Of a DNA stretch of 43,001 bases, positions 28,812-31,680 are shown one piece after another. Under the pieces are notes generated by a model. That model made no database searches, was not told the DNA's origin, and worked only from the letters and a program-made list of their open reading frames with translations. Source of the stretch: Deltaproteobacteria bacterium GWA2_54_12 (GTDB taxonomy: Bacteria; Desulfobacterota; GWC2-55-46); the NCBI GenBank assembly GCA_001795535.1, contig MGPK01000019.1:23229-66229 (forward strand), in the 5' to 3' direction. Position 1 is the stretch's first letter; every line of letters begins with the position of its first letter. A program made the position numbers and the translations under genes.

Positions 28812-29417
28812 ATGCCTTTTGACGACCTTGCTAAAAACGAACTCATAAGCATACTTGAACTTATAGACCAGGCGCAGCGTTGCTCAGGGGCCTCAGGCCT
28901 GCAGTCTCTCATATTGAACGCGGCCCTCCTCCTTGAGGCCGAATTCACCGTATGCGGGCTCGCGCGTACCGGGACGGACGGACTGCCCGTCGTGACTTCT
29001 TATGTAAACGGCAACTACCCGGAAGAATGGGTCAGAAGATACATTGAGAGCGCTTATCATCGGAAAGACCCGGTAGTGCGGTTCCACACCAAGTACGCGC
29101 TTACCCAGACCTGGACGAATGTATTCAGGCAGTTCGAGGACAAGGCGGCCAGGCAGGTCGTTAATGAAGCTTCCGATTACGGCTTGAGGTTCGGGATCAC
29201 CGGGGCCCTGTATGTCCCTGAAATGGACAATATCGCCATGTTCACATTTGCCGGGAGGGCGGATAAGTTCGGCTCGCACCACAAGAGAATAGCCGATATC
29301 CTTTCGTTGCATTTCACCCGGGCCCTTGCTGGCTGCGCCCGTGAATCACTTTTTGCCACAGGGCATCGTTTAGACGATGAAGGTCACCCGAAAGAACGGG
29401 AGGGGAAGGCATGGTGA
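28812..29417 (+). CDS. LuxR-type autoinducer-binding protein lacking a DNA-binding domain
   Basis: A 201-residue protein made only of the acyl-homoserine-lactone-binding domain. The ligand residues have the LuxR spacing exactly: Trp73, Tyr77, Asp86-Pro87 and Trp101 (LuxR Trp66, Tyr70, Asp79-Pro80, Trp94), then YGLRFGITGAL. The sequence ends at about 200 with a charged tail and has no helix-turn-helix; the stop codon overlaps the next gene by 7 bp. It could bind signal and heterodimerise with the full LuxR beside it, as the anti-activator TrlR does with TraR, or act as a signal buffer (inference). AAAGGAGC is the ribosome site. Confidence 0.87.
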   Translation: MPFDDLAKNELISILELIDQAQRCSGASGLQSLILNAALLLEAEFTVCGLARTGTDGLPVVTSYVNGNYPEEWVRRYIESAYHRKDPVVRFHTKYALTQTWTNVFRQFEDKAARQVVNEASDYGLRFGITGALYVPEMDNIAMFTFAGRADKFGSHHKRIADILSLHFTRALAGCARESLFATGHRLDDEGHPKEREGKAW

Positions 29418-30169
29418 GCTACAGCAACTTTTCGAAAAGGGAACTGGCGGATATCCTGGATGTCATTCACTCTTCTCTGCAATGCAGGGAGGAGGGGGAC
29501 ATAAAGACCCTGCTTGACCGGATAAGGGGGCTTGTCTCCGGTGATTTTGGCATCTGCGGCATAGGCAAGGGCGGCGAGGACGGGCAGGGCGGCCTTAACG
29601 CCCCTCCCCACATAATAAACCTCAACTACCCGATGGAGTGGCTGCAGATATACGGGGCCAATCAGCTCTATAACCAGGACCCTATCGTACTGCGCAACCT
29701 GTCAAACCCCGGCTCCCAGCTGTGGGACGAGACCTACTCCATGTTCGACGGCAAGCTCTCGAGGATGTTCCTCACATCGCGCGACTTCGGCTTGAACCAC
29801 GGCGTAAGCGGCGGCATGCATAACCAGGACAGTAACACCACTACCTTGTTTTCGTTCTCCGGGAAAGGCGACTGGTTCAAGGACCATCAGAAAAAGATAC
29901 TCGCCCTTCTCGCCCCCCACCTCCACCAGGCGCTGGCCCGGATTTATAAGACGGCGCAGGCCAATTCGCGCATGGGGACCCTGTCAAAGCGGGAGTGGGA
30001 GATAGTCTCCTGGGTCAAGGCTGGCAAGACCAACTGGGAGATATCCATGATACTCAGCATAAGCGAGCGGACCGTGAAGTTCCATGTCCAGAACATCGAG
30101 AGGAAGCTCGAAGCCGTCAATAAGGCCCATGCCGTAGCGATCCTGATGGAACAGGGTCATTTAGAGTAG
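29411..30169 (+). CDS. LuxR family quorum-sensing transcription factor
   Basis: A 252-residue LuxR regulator. The N-terminal autoinducer domain keeps Trp77, Tyr81, Asp90-Pro91 and Trp105 with canonical spacing. The C-terminal GerE-type helix-turn-helix (about 188-250) reads LSKREWEIVSWVKAGKTNWE then ISERTVKFHVQNIERKL, including the conserved Glu and Gly of the DNA-binding domain. It starts within the upstream luxR-like gene (7-bp overlap) and its last 53 bp overlap the end of the convergent luxI gene. It should bind the lux-box-like sites at 30821-30840 and 30881-30900. Confidence 0.92.
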   Translation: MVSYSNFSKRELADILDVIHSSLQCREEGDIKTLLDRIRGLVSGDFGICGIGKGGEDGQGGLNAPPHIINLNYPMEWLQIYGANQLYNQDPIVLRNLSNPGSQLWDETYSMFDGKLSRMFLTSRDFGLNHGVSGGMHNQDSNTTTLFSFSGKGDWFKDHQKKILALLAPHLHQALARIYKTAQANSRMGTLSKREWEIVSWVKAGKTNWEISMILSISERTVKFHVQNIERKLEAVNKAHAVAILMEQGHLE

Positions 30170-30770
30170 ACATCCAGCTGAAGAACTCAGGCCTTTTGAC
30201 TGCCGCGGACTCTTCGAACGCCCGCCAGTCGAGCACGGCTATGCCGGACATCACACCTTCCCCCAGCGGCTTGAAGTCAGCGACCGGCACGAACGGGAAA
30301 AACCTCTTCAGGTAAAAGAAGTACCTCTGTTCGATAATCGTGATAAGATATCTGGAATCGTTCTTAAGCGACCAGTGGTATATGGCCTTGTACAGCAGGT
30401 GGGCCAGGCTTAAAGACGCGACAGTGTCCCCCCGCCTGTCCTTCCTGACGCATATCCTGGTCGATTCGGACATGCCGGGTACTTTGCTGAAACCCTCTTC
30501 GGGCAGGAGGGAGGCGAATTCTTTTTCGATCATGTAAGGCAGCGGCGCGGGTATGAGCCGCACATGGCCGACGAGCTCGGAATGTTCGAATATCCCTATG
30601 CTTTCGGCGAAGTCGTCGTAAGGGTCCCTGTCCAGGCCGTCGGCGGTTGGCGGCACCCACCGGAGTTCATCCCTGAAGACATCGTGTCTGAGCCTCAGGG
30701 CAGAGTCGACCTCTTCGGGGGCGGAGATGGTCTTTACCAGGTACTTTTCCTCTTGAAATATAAGATCCAT
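30117..30770 (-). CDS. LuxI-type acyl-homoserine-lactone synthase
   Basis: A 217-residue autoinducer synthase making an AHL from SAM and an acyl-ACP or acyl-CoA. The invariant LuxI residues align by spacing: Arg28, Phe32, Trp38 (RHDVFRDELRW), Asp49 and Asp52, Arg71 in GHVRLIP, and Glu102/Arg105 in SESTRICV. The acyl specificity cannot be predicted. The start is fixed by AAGGAGGTG five bases before the ATG. It is convergent with luxR and overlaps it by 53 bp. A lux-box-like dyad 50 bp upstream of the start suggests positive feedback. Confidence 0.9.
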   Translation of the reverse strand: MDLIFQEEKYLVKTISAPEEVDSALRLRHDVFRDELRWVPPTADGLDRDPYDDFAESIGIFEHSELVGHVRLIPAPLPYMIEKEFASLLPEEGFSKVPGMSESTRICVRKDRRGDTVASLSLAHLLYKAIYHWSLKNDSRYLITIIEQRYFFYLKRFFPFVPVADFKPLGEGVMSGIAVLDWRAFEESAAVKRPEFFSWMSTLNDPVPSGSLRHGPY

Positions 30771-30792: not shown

Positions 30793-30798
30793 TTTTTA
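30793..30798 (-). promoter_or_regulatory. Predicted luxI -10 element
   Basis: On the minus strand, TGC-TAAAAA forms an extended -10 that starts 22 bp beyond the dyad at 30821-30840. Transcription would begin near 30786, centring the dyad at about -44, the position of an activating lux box. Confidence 0.45.
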
Positions 30799-30820: not shown

Positions 30821-30840
30821 AACTGGCACGAGTAGCAGTT
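30821..30840 (-). promoter_or_regulatory. Lux-box-like operator for luxI
   Basis: The 20-bp sequence AACTGGCACGAGTAGCAGTT has AACTG and CAGTT arms separated by 10 bp, with further matching pairs inside (AC and GT). This is the NNCTG-N10-CAGNN layout of LuxR-family binding sites. Its place relative to the predicted luxI promoter fits. Confidence 0.6.
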
Positions 30841-30880
30841 TAAAAAAGCGTGTAAATGGCTTAGAATAAAAGATTTCGCT

Positions 30881-30900
30881 TCCTGTACCTTGGTACAGTC
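30881..30900 (+). promoter_or_regulatory. Canonical lux-box-like operator facing radC
   Basis: TCCTGTACCTTGGTACAGTC contains CTGTACC and GGTACAG as perfect 7-bp arms two bases apart. It matches the Vibrio fischeri lux box (CCTGTA-N6-TACAG core) at 13 of 20 positions by my alignment. The core is also CTGT-N8-ACAG, the E. coli LexA box, so an SOS operator is the main alternative. Confidence 0.65.
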
Positions 30901-30921
30901 GCCTTTCCCTCCCATCCGTAA

Positions 30922-30927
30922 TAAAAT
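30922..30927 (+). promoter_or_regulatory. Predicted -10 element for radC
   Basis: TAAAAT starts 21 bp beyond the dyad at 30881-30900, with no good -35 apart from the dyad itself. The start would be near 30934 and the dyad centre near -43, as in LuxR-activated promoters. Confidence 0.45.
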
Positions 30928-30966
30928 CGGCGTTACATCAGAAAAGTTGAGCTTGCGGAGGCTGCG

Positions 30967-31680
30967 TTGGATAATAGCGCTATCGGTAGCGGTCCGGGAA
31001 ATGGGGAATTCGCTTCTTCAGGGAGGGCAGGGCAAGGGCCTCCCAGGGGGAGTAAGCCAGGAGAGATGCTGGAGCGGCTTTTATCCTACGCCGTAAAAGA
31101 AAAAGATGTCGCAGATGTTTCCAGCGGGCTCATGAAGAGGTTCAAGGGCCTCCGTGGCGTGCTGGACGCGAGCCACGAGGAGCTGAAGGATTCGGGCTGG
31201 GTAGGCGAAAACGGCGCGGTTTTTTTGAAGTTCGTGAAGGAGGCTGCCGGGGTCTACCTGAAAGAGCGGATGATGGGCAGGGATGCCCTGAGAAACATGA
31301 AATGCGTGCTTGACTATCTGAGCCTGACGCTCTCCGGGGAACGGATAGAGAAGTTTCTTGCCATATACCTGAATTCGAAAAACGAGGTGCTCTCGGTCGA
31401 TGTGCTCCACGAGGGCACGATAAATCAAACAGTCGTATACCCGAGAAAGGCTATAGAGAGGGCATTCAGGCATAAGGCCTGCGGCGTCATATTCGTGCAC
31501 AACCATCCCAGCGGGGACTCAACCCCGTCAGCCATGGACAGGCAGCTTGCCAGGACGCTTGACAGCGCCGCGGCCGCCGTGGACCTTTCCGTCGTCGATC
31601 ACATCGTAATAGGGAAGAACAGGCACTTCAGCGCGAGGGAAAACGGCTGGATGGCCGGCGGGCCTTTGCGAAAAGCGTAA
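30967..31680 (+). CDS. radC: RadC family protein with intact JAMM motif
   Basis: A 237-residue RadC/UPF0758 protein. The helix-hairpin-helix region (LMKRFKGLRGVLDASHEELK) precedes the MPN domain, which keeps the whole metal motif: Glu in VDVLHEGTINQTVVYPRKA, then VHNHPSGDSTPSAMDRQL, then DHIVIGKNRHFSARENGW. It starts at a TTG, supported by GGAGG five bases upstream; the first 35 residues are Gly/Ser-rich and lack the usual GHRxRLRER start. RadC proteins are induced in DNA uptake and repair contexts, but their biochemistry is unsettled. It is transcribed divergently from luxI across a 196-bp gap with two dyads. The next 102 bp (31681-31782) hold nothing I recognise. Confidence 0.88.
   Translation: MDNSAIGSGPGNGEFASSGRAGQGPPRGSKPGEMLERLLSYAVKEKDVADVSSGLMKRFKGLRGVLDASHEELKDSGWVGENGAVFLKFVKEAAGVYLKERMMGRDALRNMKCVLDYLSLTLSGERIEKFLAIYLNSKNEVLSVDVLHEGTINQTVVYPRKAIERAFRHKACGVIFVHNHPSGDSTPSAMDRQLARTLDSAAAAVDLSVVDHIVIGKNRHFSARENGWMAGGPLRKA

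Follow-up and report, generated by a model that had tools for sequence, protein, structure and literature searches.

RadC is a widespread protein named for DNA repair, yet to our knowledge it has no accepted function and is known mainly as competence-induced. In the window, i.e. the whole stretch of 43,001 nucleotides analysed here, a radC gene and a luxI gene are divergently arranged across a gap of 196 bp. Two luxR-family genes lie beyond luxI, preceded upstream by a triheme cytochrome gene and a pilB-like gene. An initial annotation, made from the DNA sequence, had noticed a dyad in the gap and proposed that a LuxR-type box places radC under quorum control, with SOS control as rival reading. 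This raises the question of which regulator reads the dyad and which gene it serves. Here we explore the intergenic region in the window and in a sample of 30 genomes of the same family in order to identify which elements are conserved, and with which genes.

The genes of the locus (Table 1) encode proteins with the hallmarks of their families. In LuxI, residues R28, W38, D49, D52, R71, F85, E102 and R105 are invariant among 18 aligned sequences; the conserved catalytic residues are therefore present and acyl-homoserine lactone (AHL) synthesis is predicted. The full-length LuxR combines the residues of an AHL-binding domain with a HTH domain, and among relatives both the W/Y/DP/W positions of the autoinducer domain and the recognition helix are kept. 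The binding domain is otherwise variable whereas the recognition helix is almost invariant, as expected when signals diverge and the operator stays. It is likely this LuxR that reads the boxes described below. A covariation between helix and box (RTVKFH with CTGTAC, RTAKFH with CTGTCC) was considered and discarded, since G015 has RTVKFH together with CTGTCC. RadC has the RadC/JAB domain and an intact metal motif HxH-x7-SxxD, which reads HNHPSGDSTPSAMD in the translation. A second radC paralogue at 1374-2078 of the window, approximately 29 kb away and 39% identical, lacks a lux box, and most genomes of the family have at least two radC genes.

Table 1. Coding sequences and predicted regulatory elements of the luxI-radC region (positions in the window)
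Feature	Position	Strand	Description
HTH-less LuxR-like protein	28812-29417	+	201 aa; PF03472 only
luxR	29411-30169	+	Full-length; autoinducer-binding domain (PF03472, E 3.9e-19) and GerE HTH (PF00196, E 2.1e-20)
luxI	30117-30770	-	Acyl-homoserine-lactone synthase, 217 aa; Pfam PF00765, E 1.4e-20
luxI -10 (probable)	30793-30798	-	TAAAAA, 22 bp left of site 1
Site 1	30821-30840	both directions	Lux-box-like dyad AACTGGCACGAGTAGCAGTT; AACTG-N10-CAG(T/G)T; predicted to serve luxI (left) and P1 (right)
P1 -10 (probable)	30862-30867	+	TAGAAT, 21 bp right of site 1
Site 2	30881-30900	+	20-bp lux-box dyad TCCTGTACCTTGGTACAGTC; putative operator of the radC promoter P2
P2 -10 (probable)	30922-30927	+	TAAAAT, 21 bp past the end of site 2; conserved gap 21-22
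radC	30967-31680	+	237 aa; TTG start, GGAGG just upstream; PF04002, E 1.9e-36; TIGR00608 above cut-off

The dyad of the initial annotation, hereafter site 2, is indeed built as had been described. Its perfect 7-bp arms (CTGTACC/GGTACAG) are separated by a spacer of 2 bp and its core, CTGTACCttGGTACAG at 30883-30898, reads CCTGTA-N6-TACAG; the TAAAAT hexamer that had been noted downstream is likewise found at the distance claimed. This gap puts the centre of site 2 near -43/-44, a known working position of LuxR-type activators, with respect to a predicted P2 start at about 30934, from where a transcript would run for some 33 nt ahead of radC. The estimate of about -43 in the initial annotation is thus correct.

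Taken alone, the bare dyad is not striking and hardly exceeds chance: the window has four perfect 7-2-7 dyads where about 2.6 are expected, and a search for CTGTAC-N4-GTACAG with up to three mismatches gives nine matches versus 7.9 expected, hence no enrichment. The exact pattern occurs only once in the window, at site 2. In 2000 shuffles of the 196-bp gap, none reached 11 of the 12 positions and six reached ten, whereas a TATAAT-like hexamer (at least 5/6) at a gap of 21-22 appeared in 0.8% of the shuffles. Over the 30 family genomes the exact pattern is found 26 times versus zero for the reversed pattern. It is position and conservation that make the dyad significant.

A second box, site 1, lies between luxI and site 2, and was overlooked in the initial annotation together with two further -10 elements; the reported dyad and its own -10 hexamer stand. 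The site 1 pattern is present in all 28 luxI upstream regions examined. Both sites are 20-bp imperfect dyads with the CT-N12-AG or CTGTA half sites of lux boxes, and the conserved gap of 21-22 bp would centre each at -42 to -44 of starts that are themselves predicted. The -10 element of P1, which was also chosen by a consensus scan, is TAAAAT, TAGAAT or TATAAT at a gap of exactly 21 bp, with a mean TATAAT match of 5.0/6 over 28 loci. The predicted start of P1, at about 30874, falls just ahead of site 2. On the luxI side most relatives have TAAAAA or TATAAA at a gap of 21-22, a weaker match with a mean of 3.5/6; in the window the luxI start is predicted at about 30786 on the minus strand. The predicted luxI -10 of L020, L024-L027 and L031 ends 6-7 nt ahead of the ATG, leaving no room for a RBS, which suggests that in many relatives the luxI mRNA is leaderless or that another promoter is used; the genus of the window has approximately 15 nt more between the luxI -10 and the ATG, and a good AGGAGG.

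Promoter geometry was determined from the mean match to TATAAT at each distance from a box, taken across all loci. On the radC side of site 2 the match peaks at a gap of 21 with a mean of 4.5/6, compared to about 2 at neighbouring gaps, and the luxI side, which served as internal control, has no -10 peak (2.0/6, mean over loci). The P2 hexamer is TATAAT in most relatives and weak in a few, for instance TATGGT in G022. As peaks occur on both sides of site 1 but only on the radC side of site 2, we predict that site 1 acts in both directions and site 2 in one, so that there would be three promoters (luxI, P1 and P2). The distance between the boxes varies among relatives (58-61, 67-71 or 80 bp) whereas each box keeps a constant distance to its -10, which is what one expects if every box serves its own promoter.

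To compare relatives, all radC genes retrieved from the family were included and site 2 was scored as present at a match of at least 10 of 12 positions. LuxI homologues occur in 21 of the 30 genomes. Site 2 precedes 20 of the 21 radC genes that adjoin luxR/luxI and none of the 29 other radC genes, among which is the window's own second radC; Fisher's exact test gives p~4e-13, a value that overstates independence since the loci share ancestry. In 19 of the 20 radC genes with site 2, a -10 that matches at 5/6 or better follows after 21-22 bp. In G027, the sole exception to the linkage, the frames of luxI and luxR are disrupted and the box is broken. The box thus accompanies a LuxR regulator and is missing where there is none. 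Absence of the dyad from relatives with the same gene order, which the initial annotation had named as a result that would speak against it, is not what the comparison gives. In most other genera site 2 lies 120-480 bp from radC, which leaves room for a leader or a small ORF in between.

Loci that lack one of the genes show which box belongs to which gene. Four genomes (G005, G006 and G007, and G025 from another genus), representing about two luxI loss events, have no luxI at the locus and retain luxR, site 2 and radC. Conversely, G010 and G011 have luxI with a box at the position of site 1, and neither an adjacent radC nor site 2. Site 1 is therefore tied to luxI, and site 2 to the gene on its right. 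The region with two boxes is also retained in other families of the class. There, G043 and G045 once more have radC on the right, whereas this position is taken by a XRE-type gene in G047 and a response regulator in G056 (named by eye from translations); radC is thus not the only gene next to site 2. A single merged box separates luxI from radC in G045, with suitably spaced -10-like hexamers on either side. The loci without radC L022, L023/L045 and L030 encode, divergently from luxI, proteins of approximately 60-70 aa that are similar by eye (L023: MAKQAKKASNTGKRFDASEEQKFLVDGFNRLSETGKMTLLDILCAFL).

These loci also bear on the possibility that site 2 is a distal box for luxI autoinduction only, with radC as bystander. 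It does lie upstream of luxI, luxI promoters classically bear lux boxes, and some genomes hold two boxes without radC. However, luxI has its own box at activating distance, the luxI side of site 2 lacks a -10 and the distance between the boxes is variable. Since luxI-less genomes keep site 2 with radC, luxI does not account for its presence; we rejected an exclusive luxI role and deem it very unlikely.

Under SOS control, the rival put forward in the initial annotation, the dyad would be a LexA operator and radC a member of the DNA-damage regulon. The core of site 2 agrees with the E. coli LexA consensus CTGT-N8-ACAG and RadC is traditionally called a DNA-repair protein, but the promoter of the host's single lexA carries TAGGGTAACAAATGTTACCCTA, which is unrelated to the dyad, and GGGTAAC-centred operators stand ahead of lexA in nearly every relative checked. 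The lexA operator resembles GGGTAACA-N2-TGTTACCC, and a full CTGT-N8-ACAG was found upstream of neither lexA nor recA in the relatives checked. Furthermore, G004 and G013 have lexA, lack this luxR and have no site at radC: the dyad tracks luxR, not lexA. With an unrelated lexA operator, and with lexA and recA devoid of the dyad, the SOS reading fails and is barely conceivable. Inspection of the host's lexA promoter, a check suggested at the outset, hence favours quorum control over SOS control. The LexA operator of the clade, TAGGGTAACA-N2-TGTTACCCTA-like, overlaps or just precedes the lexA start codon (L041, L161-L176).

Could LuxR at these boxes be a repressor? Either site 2 would block P1, or an EsaR-like LuxR would repress until AHL is bound. 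The genes luxI and luxR are convergent here, as are esaI and esaR. Site 2 covers about +7 to +26 relative to the predicted P1 start, and a promoter becomes LuxR-repressible when a lux box sits between its -35 and -10 (PMC4444344). All three -10 elements, however, lie approximately 21 bp beyond a box edge, with the box in place of a -35 element, which is activation geometry; and repression of P1 by site 2 would be compatible with activation of P2. We consider repression as the mode of action improbable.

Activation by LuxR at two boxes is the reading we prefer. The region is with high probability a divergent quorum region in which site 1 serves luxI and P1, and site 2 serves P2 and radC. Quorum control of radC, the central claim of the initial annotation, is strongly supported by comparison: the linkage to luxR/luxI, the fixed 21-22 bp and the retention of the box after loss of luxI all point to a LuxR-type operator, and radC is very probably switched on by cell density. 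From these conserved features we infer AHL-dependent binding of LuxR, activation rather than repression and the transcription starts given above. The signal made by LuxI would bind the full-length LuxR, a dimer of which on site 1 would sit at about -43 and recruit RNA polymerase to either side, the leftward output being luxI, i.e. autoinduction, and the rightward output P1. A dimer on site 2 would recruit polymerase to P2 from the same distance. Cell density would thereby raise RadC together with the signal synthase.

Site 2 lies immediately beyond the predicted P1 start and might therefore block P1 as well. This allows a more elaborate, density-graded relay: site 1 would fire luxI and P1, and site 2 would then block P1 and start P2. 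With increasing occupancy by LuxR, radC would be handed over from P1 to P2 at a threshold set by the HTH-less LuxR, and RadC would act as the clade's conserved quorum output in the uptake or processing of DNA in dense populations. As a whole we regard this scheme as rather doubtful. Most loci with luxI also encode the HTH-less protein, whereas it is missing from all four luxR-radC loci without luxI, which suggests a role tied to the self-made signal, as buffer or anti-activator; it is possibly a modulator. Agrobacterium TrlR, a LuxR homologue that lacks the DNA-binding domain, combines with TraR into inactive heterodimers (PMC13043044). Like TrlR, the putative modulator described here stands beside a full LuxR; unlike TrlR, it is a conserved neighbour of luxI.

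The layout appears to be an unusual-target variant of LuxR control rather than a new kind of system. TraR acts at a tra box between divergent operons of the Ti plasmid, where one LuxR-family box activates in both directions. Site 1 is predicted to be bidirectional in the same way, but here the flanking genes are a synthase gene and radC instead of transfer operons, and there is an extra one-way box, site 2. The V. fischeri luxI promoter has the same type of 20-bp dyad with CT-N12-AG, located just upstream of the core promoter and with luxI and luxR family genes adjacent, and site 2 matches its lux box at the CCTGTA-N6-TACAG core (box sequence: PMC4444344). It differs in that the present region has two boxes, three predicted promoters and radC as second output, and in that luxR is convergent with luxI here and divergent in V. 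fischeri; the host is moreover an uncultured groundwater bacterium.

Regulation of radC by cell-cell signalling has precedents in competence. S. mitis radC is up 167- and 298-fold in two strains and belongs to the SigX regulon of streptococci (PMC6001120), and radC is competence-induced in several Gram-negatives and Gram-positives, although dispensable for transformation (PMC4630621). As in competence, radC is predicted to be raised by a cell-cell signalling programme in the present case. Competence systems use peptide signals and an alternative sigma factor or other regulators, whereas here direct control by an AHL-type LuxR box is predicted. By analogy with radC in these regulons, one may guess that RadC has a role linked to the uptake or processing of DNA in dense populations. 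In the literature searched, no paper was found that connects radC with AHL quorum sensing. If an AHL-type operator is indeed conserved at radC throughout a family, radC would be an output of quorum sensing and its function could be approached directly; a quorum switch makes the control of this enigmatic gene testable. The loci with a merged box, with two boxes, with luxI lost and with radC replaced would moreover form a natural series for studying the evolution of LuxR promoters.

Motif occurrence in the host genome was assessed by pattern searches of the 2.08 Mb assembly, which is approximately 80% complete. The host has a second exact CTGTAC-N4-GTACAG (C66:13707; L073 position 5008), 77 bp ahead of a secreted lipoprotein gene and with no convincing -10 at 21 bp. 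Exact dyads recur in genus g2 between DNA ligase and CxxCH cytochrome-like genes (L063, L068, L051, L065) and in genus g13 before a SemiSWEET-like/acpS region (L058-L061, L072), and these loci are possible further LuxR targets. By eye, the 21-bp -10 geometry was found at none of the exact matches at C66, g2 and g13, hence we claim no regulon.

One genome of the host's own genus, G003 (L032, L048, L074), combines luxI and luxR products only 43-45% identical to those of the window with RadC and PilZ proteins that are 82% and 83% identical, and both boxes are conserved. It seems that the signal-receptor pair was exchanged in place while operators and target were retained.
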